Of a stretch of 25,252 nt of DNA, positions 11,925-24,912 are shown one piece after another. Position 1 is the first letter of the stretch, and every line of letters begins with the position of its first letter. This DNA is from a virus. The notes beneath the pieces were generated by a model. It ran no database searches. It saw nothing but the letters and a program-made list of their open reading frames with translations, and was not told the DNA's origin. A program made the position numbers and the translations under genes. The stretch lies in the IMG/VR virus record IMGVR_UViG_3300025102_004522, positions 1 to 25,252 of that record; one strand, 5' to 3'.

Positions 11925-12085
11925 TATGCTACATAACCATATTTTTCACGAAGTATTTTTTTATAAGGTTTACCATCTTCAACCAAACCTTTAACTAGTC
12001 TTAGTTTACGAGTCAATTCTGTATCAACATCTGATACAGATTCAATGATGATTTCTAGTTCATCTAAATCAATAGGTAAGTCCAT
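11924..12085 (-). CDS. Small acidic protein after gp43, unknown function
   Basis: Encodes 53 aa (MDLPIDLDELEIIIESVSDV, then ELTRKLRLVKGLVEDGKPYK and a C-terminal KILREKYGYVA). It is predicted helical with no known motif. An ORF extension to 12130 exists but would lie fully inside gp43. I choose 12085 because its ATG shares one base with the gp43 stop (TAATG), as is common here; its own stop is coupled likewise to the cytidylyltransferase. Relatives occur in cyanophages to my recollection, without function. Confidence 0.72.
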   Translation of the reverse strand: MDLPIDLDELEIIIESVSDVDTELTRKLRLVKGLVEDGKPYKKILREKYGYVA

Positions 12086-14586
12086 TAGGTAAAAAATAAT
12101 TCTAGGTTTACAGTTTTTTCGACGTTCCAACCAATCGCATCAAGAATTGCTTTGAGTGGTTCAACAAAACTCTTTTCAAATTGTAGATCATAATCTATGT
12201 ACTTGTCAAGTCCAATTTCAGTAGGAAAGTCTTGGATAAAGGAAATAACATTCTCTTGTATAATGTTTGGTTTTTTCAAGTATATGAACTTAACCTTTTC
12301 ACCATTACCAATAAGTGAATATTTATTATCCAACTTCTTCTGCTTGACATAATGATTGAATAATAATGCACCACGAATATGTATTGGAGTTCCCTTTGCA
12401 TATATTGTAGAATGTGCTTTATACTTCTGCACATTTGATGCTGTGCGAGGAAAGGCAATATCTTCTGGTGGAAGTGATTTAAACTTTGTGCGACAATCAT
12501 CAATGAAATGTATTACATCTTCTTCTGTTCCATTCATCATTAATTTAAGTCCGTCCTTAATCATGCTACGACAAGGTGCAGGAGTTGATGACTTGACTGC
12601 CTCAATACCCATCATCTTAAGTTTAGGTTCTTCATATCGAACACCTTCACTGTCCCATACGTTTAGAATATATCTTTTCTTTGCTGTCCATATACCACGA
12701 TCTGCGATGTTCTCTCTTTTCATGAACATCTTTTGGTCGTATGCATTTACGTACGAGGCCAACGTTTCATAAGAACTCGTAATATATTTTTCAAATTCCA
12801 TCTCACAGATCTTATTAAGGAACGAACAAACGCTCGCACCATCCTTCTCTCGATCTTTGTATATGACCTCCACCAAAGGACCAAGATTAAGGTAGATGGA
12901 ATCAGTATCTGAGGCAATAACATAATCAGTATTCTCCGTTTTTAGTATTTTATTAAGGTAAGCATTCATTTTGTTTTCTATCCAACGAATAGAAACCTGT
13001 CCCGACAAAGTAATTGCTTCTGCGTTTGCTAGTTTATAATACCTGAAGTACTGATTGCCGATAGCACCATAAGCAGAATTAAGAGATATCTTTTTCGCCA
13101 TTTGGATGTTGTTGCATCTCGCAATCTCTTTCTCAAGATCTTTCGTCGGAGTCTTTTCATATGCTTTCTTTGCTTTGATCATTCTCTTTTTGAAGATGAC
13201 CCTTTCATTATACATCTTCTCCATAAGTTCTGGAAGGAACCCACGGACATCTTTACGGAACATTGCACCATTCGCACAGATCGCATTGTCCTTATACATC
13301 TCAAAGGTCAAGTCTTCATTAAGAATTTTATCAACGGTAACTGATGGGTGCTTTGTTTCAAGTAATGTTTCTGGGGAAATATTATACTGCATAATTAAAT
13401 GCGGATACAGACTATTCAAGTCGAATGAAACCACCCAATCATATTTACCAGGTATTGGTTCTTTTACATATGCACCTGCATACTTCTCGACTTTATCAGA
13501 TCTTTCTTTTGGTGGAATAACAATATCTCTTCTCTTCAAATAATTGTAGATGATTGTGTCCCACATTCTTACCTGATAGAACACATCTTCATAGTTGACC
13601 TTTGCATCATATGCCATCGTCAAGGCAAGTTCAATCAACTTCATCTTGTCTTCCAAACGGTCAACAAGTTCAACGTCAATGATGTTATATTCTACAAACT
13701 TCTGCCAACCATTTGTATAGAAGTCTTTAAATGTATCAAACTCTGAGTGATCTAGTTTCTTTTGTCCAAGTTCTACACTTGCAATGTAATCCAAACGATA
13801 TGACTCTTGTGCCTTATATGTAAACTTCTTATATAAGTCAAGATAATCTAACTGAGATACACCACCAATATCATATGAAATATGTCTACGACCCATAATT
13901 TGAGTTTCACACTCAGTCACCAAACCCCAAGGTGACATTCTCTTCATTAGCTTGCCACCAAGAACTCTTTCAAGTCTACGACAAACATATGGGATATCAT
14001 ATAATTTACTATTCCAACCTGTAATAACTTCTGGAGTATTACCCTCAATCATCCACCAGTTGATAAACGAACTTAAGAGTTCGTGCTCTGTTCTAAATGC
14101 TTTATAAGTAACATTCTTTTGTTTATTATTGAAGTCCCCAAGACCCCAAGTAAGAATTTGTTTTGTTGTATAATCTTGAATTGATATTAAAAGAATCTCT
14201 TCTGCAGCAGATTCTACATCAGGGAAACCATGCTCTGACTTCACCTCAATATCAAGTGTGACCAGTTTTATCTTTTCAATATCAAACTTAACTTCATTCT
14301 CTGAATACTTGTCAGAGATGTATTGGTATATAAATCTTTCATTCCCATAAACCTCAAAGTTCTCAACCTCCGAATATTTTTTTATGAACTCACGACAATC
14401 TCTTACACCGCCAGGTTTGATCGGTTCAACCGATTTACCAGTCAGAGTTTTGTATTTGCTTTTTCTTTTAGAGTTGACAAAAAGGGTTGGAGAAAACTTC
14501 TCACGGGTTGCAAAGTGTTTACCATCTTCATAACCACGAATTAAGAAATTGTCCCCAACCATTTGAACGTTGGTGTAAAATCTCAT
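12085..14586 (-). CDS. 43: DNA polymerase gp43 (family B)
   Basis: Encodes 833 aa, slightly shorter than T4 gp43 (898 aa) and typical of cyanophages. The proofreading exonuclease is intact: Exo I LDIEVKSEHGFPD at 111-123, Exo II TGWNSKLYDIPY around 189-200, Exo III with Y300 and D304 (VEYNIIDVELVD). Polymerase motifs: A DLNSLYPHLIMQ at 389-400, B MAKKISLNSAYGAIGN at 496-511, C ASDTDSIYLNLG at 558-569, and the KKRY motif later (TAKKRYILNVWD). No intein or homing endonuclease interrupts it. The C-terminal LELFFT resembles a clamp-binding tail. Start overlaps the upstream stop by 4 nt. Confidence 0.97.
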   Translation of the reverse strand: MRFYTNVQMVGDNFLIRGYEDGKHFATREKFSPTLFVNSKRKSKYKTLTGKSVEPIKPGGVRDCREFIKKYSEVENFEVYGNERFIYQYISDKYSENEVKFDIEKIKLVTLDIEVKSEHGFPDVESAAEEILLISIQDYTTKQILTWGLGDFNNKQKNVTYKAFRTEHELLSSFINWWMIEGNTPEVITGWNSKLYDIPYVCRRLERVLGGKLMKRMSPWGLVTECETQIMGRRHISYDIGGVSQLDYLDLYKKFTYKAQESYRLDYIASVELGQKKLDHSEFDTFKDFYTNGWQKFVEYNIIDVELVDRLEDKMKLIELALTMAYDAKVNYEDVFYQVRMWDTIIYNYLKRRDIVIPPKERSDKVEKYAGAYVKEPIPGKYDWVVSFDLNSLYPHLIMQYNISPETLLETKHPSVTVDKILNEDLTFEMYKDNAICANGAMFRKDVRGFLPELMEKMYNERVIFKKRMIKAKKAYEKTPTKDLEKEIARCNNIQMAKKISLNSAYGAIGNQYFRYYKLANAEAITLSGQVSIRWIENKMNAYLNKILKTENTDYVIASDTDSIYLNLGPLVEVIYKDREKDGASVCSFLNKICEMEFEKYITSSYETLASYVNAYDQKMFMKRENIADRGIWTAKKRYILNVWDSEGVRYEEPKLKMMGIEAVKSSTPAPCRSMIKDGLKLMMNGTEEDVIHFIDDCRTKFKSLPPEDIAFPRTASNVQKYKAHSTIYAKGTPIHIRGALLFNHYVKQKKLDNKYSLIGNGEKVKFIYLKKPNIIQENVISFIQDFPTEIGLDKYIDYDLQFEKSFVEPLKAILDAIGWNVEKTVNLELFFT

Positions 14587-14849
14587 TCTTTAATTAGATT
14601 CAAATATTGTTCCAGTAATGTTGGTGTTGGAAGTGCTAATGTAAGTATCTTATCAGATCCCATCATAAAAGTATCATCTCGTGTGAGATCCATCATAAAT
14701 GGTTCAAGGACTGTTTTACCAGACTCTGTATTTACTACAAATGGTTTAACAAGTTTACAATCGGGTTCACCAATATCTGCACTTGCAACTTCATCTACTT
14801 GACTGATAATATAATGATTATTAATCAGTGCTAGAACTCTCACTTCCAT
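14583..14849 (-). CDS. Sm-like fold candidate, gp43-adjacent protein
   Basis: Encodes 88 aa (MEVRVLALINNHYIISQVDE, then PFVVNTESGKTVLEPF, ending ALPTPTLLEQYLNLIKE). The plan of short beta strands with a P-F-V-V core, a PF/PW position and a terminal 'P-x-x-x-x-E-x-Y' helix is shared with the proteins at 14821-15135 and 21356-21640, so the three look paralogous. I recall such proteins in cyanophages as Sm-like; this is inference. It starts 29 nt inside the upstream gene and ends 4 nt inside gp43 (ATGA), so translation is probably linked to gp43. Confidence 0.7.
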   Translation of the reverse strand: MEVRVLALINNHYIISQVDEVASADIGEPDCKLVKPFVVNTESGKTVLEPFMMDLTRDDTFMMGSDKILTLALPTPTLLEQYLNLIKE

Positions 14850-15135
14850 TTACTTTTTCCGAATACATTTCTTTGATACTATCTAGTGGCTCAACCATTG
14901 TAACCACATGATGTTTTGGTACTAATATTTCCTTATCAGCAGTCAATAATATCCAAGGGGATAAAGTAACTTGAACTGATCTATCCTCTTCACTCTCTGC
15001 AAGAAATTGTTTTTCAGCAGATACTCGATGTGGATTAGAAAATAAAAATCCTACTGGTTTCCCATCATCAACCAGTTCTTTTATTTCCGCAATTACATGT
15101 TCTTTATCTTGTAATATTGCTAATTTAACAGACAT
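14821..15135 (-). CDS. Sm-like fold candidate, first gene of the gp43 unit
   Basis: Encodes 104 aa (MSVKLAILQDKEHVIAEIKE, then GFLFSNPHRVSAEKQFLAES, VQVTLSPWILLTADKEILVP, and a C-terminal TMVEPLDSIKEMYSEK). Strand pattern, the SPW motif and the final EP-x-x-x-I-x-x-x-Y helix match the 94-aa protein at 21356-21640. It is the first gene after the promoter at 15229-15256 and its structured leader. A small RNA- or protein-binding beta barrel is the best guess. No clear Shine-Dalgarno is seen before the start. Confidence 0.7.
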   Translation of the reverse strand: MSVKLAILQDKEHVIAEIKELVDDGKPVGFLFSNPHRVSAEKQFLAESEEDRSVQVTLSPWILLTADKEILVPKHHVVTMVEPLDSIKEMYSEKVNGSESSSTD

Positions 15136-15222
15136 AATAAAGTATTAATTGAAAGGTAGATTCCTATCGCCGCTAATCCTGAACCTACCAAAGGGGATCA
15201 CCGCAGTCAGTATTTCTCTGAC
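15136..15222 (-). promoter_or_regulatory. Structured 5' leader of the gp43 unit
   Basis: About 87 nt of presumed leader lie between the inferred transcription start (near 15222) and the start codon at 15135. Two inverted repeats are visible: arms 15206-15210 and 15218-15222 (GTCAG/CTGAC, 7-nt loop), and arms 15155-15163 and 15181-15189 (9 bp with one G-U pair, 17-nt loop rich in G). GGAT in the second loop could pair with ATCC of the GATCCCC segment between the stems (15193-15199), a possible pseudoknot. It matches no riboswitch class I can name. It could control translation or be a small RNA. Confidence 0.5.
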
Positions 15223-15228
15223 AGATAT

Positions 15229-15256
15229 ATTATAGCATAAAAAAAGGGATCGTCAA
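15229..15256 (-). promoter_or_regulatory. Sigma70-type promoter with extended -10
   Basis: On the minus strand: -35 TTGACG (15256-15251, 5 of 6 consensus), 16-nt spacer, extended -10 TGC-TATAAT (15237-15229, perfect hexamer). The -35 lies in the loop of the hsp20 terminator and is flanked on both sides by GATC. This should drive the Sm-like genes, gp43 and the genes to 7567 with host RNA polymerase. Confidence 0.85.
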
Positions 15257-15263
15257 GATCCCT
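15239..15263 (-). terminator. Intrinsic terminator after hsp20
   Basis: The minus strand has AGGGATC (15263-15257), loop TTGAC, GATCCCT (15251-15245), directly followed by a run of T down to 15239. A 7-bp GC-containing stem with 7 T is a strong rho-independent terminator, 27 nt after the hsp20 stop. Confidence 0.88.
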
Positions 15264-15289: not shown

Positions 15290-15721
15290 TTAGAGATAAT
15301 CTTTCCGAGCATGATGCTCTGGAACTATCTTACTCAATTTAATCGAAAGCATTCCATCTTCAAATTTTACATTGTCTACTTTTGTATCATCTGAGAGTGT
15401 CCAAGATCTTGTGAATGCACGTTGTGCTAATCCCCTATGAGCATAGTTCTCAGGTTCTTGCTTTTCCTCTCTATCTGCTTTTACGATAAGTTTACCATAT
15501 TCGGTATATACTTTTACATCTTTTTTCTTAAATCCTGCCAATGCAATCTCAAGTCTTGATTCATGATTGCTAACACTAATTAGATTATATGGTGGATAGT
15601 TAGATGAATAATCGTCATTAAAAAATCGGTCAAGGTAATCGTCCATACCTATACCGTTTCTGTTAATTATTTTCATCAACTCTGGTAAGTTTGCAGAGTG
15701 ATATCTTTGTAGTGCTGTCAT
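15290..15721 (-). CDS. hsp20: Small heat shock protein (Hsp20 / alpha-crystallin)
   Basis: Encodes 143 aa, an ATP-independent holdase chaperone. The N-terminal 50 residues are variable. The alpha-crystallin domain is recognisable: RLEIALAGFKKKDVKVYTEY, GKLIVKADREEK, the AQRAFTRSWTLSDDTKVDNV loop, FEDGMLSIKLSKIVPE. The start at 15721 (MTALQRYHSANLPEL) has a strong Shine-Dalgarno (AGGAG, 7-nt spacing); an ORF extension to 15772 lacks one and is rejected. Hsp20 is a common gene of T4-like cyanophages. It is last in its unit, followed by the terminator at 15239-15263. A weak -10-like TATACT lies upstream at 15742-15747. Confidence 0.92.
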   Translation of the reverse strand: MTALQRYHSANLPELMKIINRNGIGMDDYLDRFFNDDYSSNYPPYNLISVSNHESRLEIALAGFKKKDVKVYTEYGKLIVKADREEKQEPENYAHRGLAQRAFTRSWTLSDDTKVDNVKFEDGMLSIKLSKIVPEHHARKDYL

Positions 15722-15728
15722 AATAGTT

Positions 15729-15733
15729 CTCCT
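15729..15733 (-). promoter_or_regulatory. Ribosome binding site of hsp20
   Basis: AGGAG on the minus strand, 7 nt before the ATG at 15721. It is unusually clear for this window, where most starts rely on overlap with the upstream gene, and it decides the hsp20 start. Confidence 0.85.
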
Positions 15734-15774
15734 ATAAAGCGAGTATAAAATGTGAACCCTTTCGGCATTCAATA

Positions 15775-24312: not shown

Positions 24313-24852
24313 TTAGGATATCCAATTTGGTTTACGAGATGGATTGCGGAGGTAATTTGCTGCAACCCAAGGTTTAGATGCAATGTATCTTTTGTAAGCA
24401 GTGAAGATATCAATGCTTTTATCAAGTTTAAATTCATCAGGTCCTGCAAAGGCAAATTTCTTTACATCTCTGTGAATAGATAAGTCTTGTTTTGTTTTAT
24501 CAAAGAAGACTTGTCTTGCTTCTTGTATTGTAGCAGAACATGAATGTATTTTTCCATACCTTTTAAAGTATTCATAACATAATGCAACACCGTGTGCAAT
24601 TAATAACCATGCAGTCTTATTAATATCCTCTGCTGCCCATACTGTACAGGGATGTCCACGGAAAGCACCTTTCTTGGTGTTGTAAGGTGATCCGTCTTTC
24701 TTATGGAGCAATTCATCACCCCAATTGTAATACCACTTAGAATAGACTACAGCCAACATTTGACAAGTCTCTAATGGCATTTTGACTACATGTTTGTCAG
24801 GTAGAACCTCTGCTGATTTATAAGGGCAAGGTTCAGTCACGAATACATTCAT
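24313..24852 (-). CDS. Conserved phage protein (FVTxxxPxxSAE...DKHVVKM family)
   Basis: Encodes 179 aa. The N-terminus MNVFVTEPCPYKSAEVLPDK and HVVKMPLETCQMLAVV, then the HPCTVWAAEDINKTAWLLIA segment and HGVALCYEYFKRYGKIHSC, define a family widely present in T4-like and other marine phages. I recall annotations of pyrimidine-dimer glycosylase-like for some members, but the link is weak. Start at 24852 fits the family (MN[VI]FVT); an ORF extension to 24885 runs through a terminator-like hairpin and is rejected. First gene of the unit ending with hsp20. Confidence 0.78.
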   Translation of the reverse strand: MNVFVTEPCPYKSAEVLPDKHVVKMPLETCQMLAVVYSKWYYNWGDELLHKKDGSPYNTKKGAFRGHPCTVWAAEDINKTAWLLIAHGVALCYEYFKRYGKIHSCSATIQEARQVFFDKTKQDLSIHRDVKKFAFAGPDEFKLDKSIDIFTAYKRYIASKPWVAANYLRNPSRKPNWIS

Positions 24853-24858
24853 AATAAA

Positions 24859-24886
24859 AATGGAAATAAGTTTCCTTACTTCCATT
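24859..24886 (-). terminator. Terminator-like hairpin after purS
   Basis: On the minus strand, arm 24886-24875 pairs with 24870-24859 (12 bp with one G-U), closing a GAAA tetraloop, followed by T residues to 24856. It lies 27 nt after the purS stop and only 6 nt before the next start codon, so it should end read-through from purS. A start-codon-proximal regulatory hairpin is the alternative. Confidence 0.7.
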
Positions 24887-24912
24887 ATAACATTGGTTTT
24901 ACTTTTTGCAAA
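24884..24912 (-). promoter_or_regulatory. Sigma70-type promoter overlapping the hairpin
   Basis: On the minus strand: -35-like TTTGCA (24912-24907, 4 of 6), 17-nt spacer, perfect -10 TATAAT (24889-24884). The start would fall near 24877, inside the hairpin arm, so transcripts begun here do not carry the full stem. It would serve the unit from 24852 to hsp20. Confidence 0.6.

Follow-up and report, generated by a model that had tools for sequence, protein, structure and literature searches.

Can a single stretch of about 35 bp both end one transcription unit and start the next? This question is raised by a locus in a 25-kb virus record of a T4-like cyanophage (IMG/VR record IMGVR_UViG_3300025102_004522; 25,252 nucleotides, this whole stretch being referred to as the window). 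The relevant genes lie on the minus strand in the order regA, a PHROG 29277 gene, hsp20, a gap of 154 bases, a PHROG 431 gene, a PHROG 483 gene and gp43. The small heat-shock protein gene hsp20 (15290..15772; PHROG 432, E = 2.9e-51) is the final gene of the upstream unit, while the downstream unit comprises the PHROG 431 gene (T4-GC176-type; 14821..15135) and the PHROG 483 gene (T4-GC177-type; 14583..14849), both recognized by profile matches, followed by the gp43 DNA polymerase gene (12085..14586; PHROG 262, 1205 bits). The element studied here, at 15229-15263, occupies the 154-base gap between hsp20 and the PHROG 431 gene.

Read on the minus strand, the element has the form AGGGATC-TTGAC-GATCCCT-TTTTTTATGC-TATAAT. 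Its first part, the hairpin AGGGATC-TTGAC-GATCCCT-TTTTTT situated 27 bases 3' of the hsp20 stop codon, is a predicted intrinsic terminator (15239..15263), with the 5' arm AGGGATC at 15263-15257, the loop TTGAC at 15256-15252, the 3' arm GATCCCT at 15251-15245 and a T-run ending at 15239. Such terminators typically combine a hairpin containing G+C pairs with a T-run immediately after it; here there is a 7-bp stem with 4 G-C pairs and 7 T, the first of which is paired. A consensus scan covering the last 15 kb of the window ranked this site first among terminator-like sites, with the longest T tail and its 4 G-C pairs; the folding energy of the hairpin is -10.3 kcal/mol (z = -2.65; 2 of 200 shuffles being equally stable), and the prediction is further supported by covariation of the arms in relatives. 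The same DNA contains TTGACA-like and TATAAT hexamers within the 16-18 nt separation characteristic of sigma70-type promoters. The -35 hexamer TTGACG (15251..15256) consists of the hairpin loop and the first base of the 3' arm, and the U-tract forms part of the 16-base spacer that separates it from an extended -10, TGCTATAAT (15229..15237; TG at 15237-15236, TATAAT at 15234-15229). This promoter scores 11/12; the scan of the last 15 kb yielded three promoters with that score, and only the one at 15229-15263 has the TG extension. The earlier note had placed the -35 in the loop and adjoining arm of the hsp20 terminator and the U-run in the spacer up to an extended -10, and both the sequence and the coordinates of that description are correct. 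A T4-type late promoter (TATAAATA, which has no -35 requirement) was ruled out, the sequence here being TATAATATA and TTGAC being present at promoter distance.

From this layout and the comparisons below, we consider it highly probable that an intrinsic terminator and a sigma70-type promoter are fused at 15229-15263, insulating the PHROG 431-gp43 unit from hsp20. Polymerase leaving hsp20 would form the hairpin and let go of its RNA within the U-tract, near 15239, while host RNA polymerase carrying the main sigma factor would use this DNA as its promoter and start near 15222, about 17 bp further on. As this predicted start lies just outside the terminator, the new PHROG 431-gp43 transcript would not itself be terminated, and a unit of replication genes could thus be insulated from its neighbor within about 35 bp, with a saving of space. 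We infer termination, initiation and use by the unmodified host polymerase from the sequence and its conservation; the last of these is consistent with passages of PMC2984593, according to which the T4 genes for adapting the polymerase to early promoters are missing from cyanophages, whose early genes are presumably read by an unmodified host sigma70-type polymerase. Counted against the fused-element reading are the only moderate stability of the hairpin and the existence of several relatives in which the equivalent junction holds one half alone, or the two halves apart.

A simpler account would be that a genuine terminator coincides with a promoter-like match that arose by accident in AT-rich DNA. 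In the last 15 kb of the window promoter-like matches as such are at the chance level (73 found versus 68.9 expected), so the window by itself cannot decide the issue and the case rests on comparison. As the earlier note had proposed, we scanned cyanophage genomes for sigma70 promoters overlapping intrinsic terminators, using 12 whole or nearly whole genomes (2.34 Mb); terminators were identified by folding the 44 bases preceding each T-tract, and promoter positions were counted from the start of the U-tract. A strong sigma70-type promoter with its -10 at +5 to +14 was present at 38 of the 372 compact terminators, against an expectation of 1.7 from positions +20 to +89 behind the same terminators and of 1.8 from T-tracts without a hairpin (Poisson p ~3e-37 for 38 versus 1.7, a figure to be read knowing that related sites are not independent). 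Each of the 12 genomes has at least one such site, which bears out the suggestion that this is a recurring arrangement. Among terminators outside long ORFs, the -10 starts at +10 or +11 in 38 cases versus about 3.4 expected (~1.7 for each position from +20 to +89), a sharp peak that supports the extended -10 at 15229..15237. The TG extension accompanies 31 of the 60 such terminators with a -10 at +6 to +14, and TTGAC lies inside the hairpin in 14 of the 60 terminators with a nearby -10 but in 3 of the 112 without one (Fisher p = 3e-5).

Independent evidence was provided by metagenomes: a search of IMG/VR with the pattern TTGACGN{2,6}CCTTTTTTN{3,5}TATAAT recovered the layout in at least 120 stretches, while control patterns of the same composition returned 8 matches with a scrambled -10 and 9 with a scrambled -35. 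These controls, together with the positional enrichment in the 12 genomes, largely refute the predicted overlap being a coincidence, a reading to which we give next to no credence. Among the matches listed, 74 of 103 distinct sites have TTGAC as the exact loop and a stem of 5 bp or more, the remainder mostly having either a second layout, with a bulge of the 3' arm spanned by TTGAC (CCAGTTGACGCC), or a shifted loop. The loop-type stems have 15 different 7-base arms, with pairs 2 to 5 each represented by several pair types that covary around the TTGAC loop; TTGACG was set by the search pattern in this comparison, and the arms and their pairing were free to vary. Behind the listed sites are genes of about 15 unrelated families, including DnaJ-like and Hli-like ones (named by eye from their sequences), with PHROG 431-like genes being the commonest (a cluster of 61 of 98 among the matches listed). 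Since many of the counted sites share descent, the enrichment figures overstate the number of independent events, but the roughly 15 downstream families and 15 arm sequences still remain. The predicted fused stop/start layout hence recurs across cyanophages far above chance. This offers a rule for reading cyanophage transcription units, namely that about one terminator in 10 is predicted to restart transcription on the spot, and cautions that promoter calls should not be discarded for lying in a terminator.

The junction between hsp20 and the gp43 unit in isolate genomes provides a further view of the element. At least five isolates carry a fused terminator and promoter at the orthologous junction with a hairpin layout differing from that of the window: in S-SRM01, S-SM2, Bellamy, S-SCSM1 and AG-345-L05 the hairpin is longer, its 3' arm contains TTGAC(A/G), and it is followed by a U-tract and by a suitably spaced -10-like hexamer. 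P-TIM68 shows a short-loop layout with GTGACA. In Sf-FS3 and P-SSM7 the terminator and promoter are separate, S-SSM7 has the terminator without a promoter, and P-SSM2 and P-RSM6 have the promoter without a terminator. In close relatives lacking the terminator (P-SSM2 and three others) the promoter persists and is followed, at a constant spacing, by a leader RNA, which again speaks against an accidental promoter match. Both functions are therefore often kept together while the sequence is rebuilt, a pattern that favors selection for the fused arrangement over inheritance of a single copy. Of the earlier proposal that one 35-bp element ends the hsp20 operon and starts the one with gp43, the layout between hsp20 and the gp43 unit stands, with fused forms of other hairpin layouts kept in at least five isolates, and the ending and starting of transcripts should be read as predicted activities. 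Sequence comparison establishes the layout and its enrichment, as well as the conservation of both putative halves.

In P-HM1 and Sf-CH8 the junction has TTGACA in the 5' arm or the loop, with a U-tract that is small or nearly absent; this inverted repeat may represent an operator or a terminator that has decayed. More generally, it might be the promoter alone that matters, the inverted repeat being no terminator but a DNA operator to which a regulator binds. The overlap of the repeat with the -35, a frequent location for operators, and the scarcity of U-tract around the repeat in these two phages are in line with such a role. However, the 15 arm types imply that there is no conserved site for a regulator to recognize, most junction copies retain the U-tract and the hairpins fold stably as RNA, making an operator very unlikely.

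If the fused terminator and promoter operate as predicted, their proximity raises the possibility of a polymerase relay, wherein the enzyme stays on the DNA after releasing its RNA, shifts by about 17 bp and restarts, thereby coupling the expression of the two units. Once intrinsic termination has occurred, Escherichia coli polymerase usually keeps hold of the DNA, along which it can slide and then reinitiate (PMC6978380, PMC6978322), with 37-55% of the terminated enzymes reinitiating at a downstream promoter in vitro (PMC6978380). With the predicted release point at 15239 and the predicted start at about 15222 being only 17 bp apart, the terminating enzyme would already cover the promoter. 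Yet an elongating enzyme has often shed sigma, a recycling enzyme slides far, so that a tight overlap is unnecessary, and restart occurs mostly in the reverse direction (PMC6978322). We therefore regard the relay as doubtful. The wider proposition, that a stop-and-restart element evolved repeatedly in cyanophages in at least three hairpin geometries, with one DNA segment serving as terminator and promoter and the released polymerase being handed to the next unit, likewise appears unlikely to us. Simple insulation with a saving of space is the best-supported mechanism, ahead of a hand-over of polymerase. Post-termination recycling (PMC6978380, PMC6978322) resembles the present case in tying a terminator to nearby re-initiation by the same enzyme, but it is a property of the polymerase observed on test templates, whereas the cyanophage case is a sequence element. 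Elements of this kind could therefore supply natural templates for testing the re-use of a terminator-released polymerase at a promoter that it already covers.

Both signal types have precedents in this group of phages. Passages of PMC3037559 and PMC2984593 on cyanomyovirus predictions likewise describe sigma70-type early promoters upstream of early-gene homologs and intrinsic terminators, but handle the two as separate signals and in those passages do not mention an overlap, whereas here they are fused. The closest known systems are the PeSLs, reportedly short for promoter-early stem-loops and the subject of studies by Arbiol et al. in 2010 and by Comeau et al. With PeSL cassettes the cyanophage element shares a terminator stem-loop and a strong sigma70-type promoter within one short intergenic element, a combination present at 15229-15263, as well as occurrence several times per genome in T4-like phages. 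We applied the same scan to RB49, which we take to be a phage in which PeSLs were described, and recovered TTGACA promoters in tandem behind terminators, with the -10 at +38 to +57 at 12 sites and at +5 to +14 at one; in T4 and KVP40 the scan gave no peak of -10 elements at +10/+11. The cyanophage element differs from this tandem arrangement in having the -35 inside the hairpin, the U-tract in the spacer and the -10 at +10/+11. Being PeSL-like but overlapped, it is here called a new variant, the PeSL arrangement having been judged from the RB49 scan. In their title, as cited in PMC4503421, Comeau et al. 2014 present PeSLs in T4-like phages as composite promoter-terminator motifs mediating modular shuffling. 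By analogy, the composite in cyanophages might be kept as a portable block of homology for gene shuffling rather than for its transcriptional geometry, and its presence ahead of about 15 unrelated gene families would fit this. Nevertheless, a homology block should preserve its sequence, while the arms and loop geometry vary between sites, even at the orthologous junction, and copies matching the strict pattern number just 0-2 per genome. Hence, such a recombination cassette seems improbable.

The predicted transcript start also exposes an undescribed structured RNA that is widespread in marine viruses. The transcript would begin with a 17-nt hairpin, GUCAG-AGAAAUA-CUGAC (15206..15222, minus strand; fold z = -3.66), which has GTTGA..TCAAC equivalents in relatives. 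Behind it we identified a 52-nt pseudoknot (15155..15206, minus strand) formed by the helices 15203-15195/15179-15171 and 15189-15181/15163-15155, which matches a covariation-based model at 78.2 bits (the model including the window's own copy). Across 27 diverse copies 99.6% of the pair cells are standard and both sides change in 10 of the 17 pairs; the covariation score is 0.538 versus 0.216 in shuffles, and sliding the partners against each other destroys the covariation. Treated as a nested structure the leader folds unremarkably (z = -0.32), because its real fold is apparently the pseudoknot, which was found by covariation. This RNA is present in at least 120 IMG/VR stretches. A promoter precedes it in 95 of the 114 copies scored, with the pseudoknot usually starting 19-22 nt past the -10. 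Among the matches listed, 74 of 115 distinct copies have a tRNA gene within 200 nt, and 73 of those 74 genes begin 3 to 7 bases past the pseudoknot; 64 of the genes are tRNA-Arg and 9 tRNA-Pro. A tRNA search of the window found none, and a protein gene starts there about 20 bases past the pseudoknot. Rfam has no family for the leader or for its tRNA-associated copy. We hence regard the pseudoknot, as predicted from covariation, as an undescribed structured RNA common in marine T4-like phages and located at promoter starts; our leading guess is that it might protect the 5' end or act as an element in the processing of tRNA transcripts.

Other identities for the leader were considered. In cellular genomes there were 15 scattered matches in unrelated organisms, which were judged to be chance. 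A multi-copy mobile cassette was ruled out by the presence of one copy in each of the six isolate genomes with an exact match. The HDV fold includes a P3 helix and its loop, for which the two-helix fold of the leader leaves no room, ruling out a theta (HDV-like) ribozyme. Theta ribozymes are moreover located at the 3' ends of tRNAs (PMC10879173), unlike the leader RNA.

The earlier note had also pointed to a second, looser case at 24859-24912, in which the -10 overlaps a terminator arm. The promoter (TTTGCA or TTGCAA as -35, TATAAT with TG) and the hairpin directly after it (24886-24859, minus strand; -13.9 kcal/mol, followed by TTTTATT) are indeed found there by scan and fold, but the geometry is unlike that of 15229-15263, with the promoter upstream and the predicted start inside the 5' arm of the hairpin, and the arrangement is not conserved at orthologs of the downstream PHROG 624 gene in eight genomes. 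Profile and tblastn matches place the start of that gene (ORF 24313-24885, minus strand) at Met 12 (24852) instead of the ORF's first ATG (24885), so the hairpin lies in its 5' UTR. Read-through from upstream would then yield the whole hairpin, which transcription from this promoter would leave incomplete. In the 12 cyanophage genomes, 12 sites have a strong promoter whose -10 lies at -36 to -21 relative to the U-tract, most of them starting inside the hairpin; this number is several-fold above background, and the class thus recurs, though less often than the fused class (12 versus 38 sites). As a separate observation, -10-like hexamers about 31-35 nt ahead of the U-tract were common in the scan of RB49, T4 and KVP40 (18 in the bin), and the two strong promoters of that bin are both in KVP40, suggesting a promoter-then-hairpin layout in that phage.
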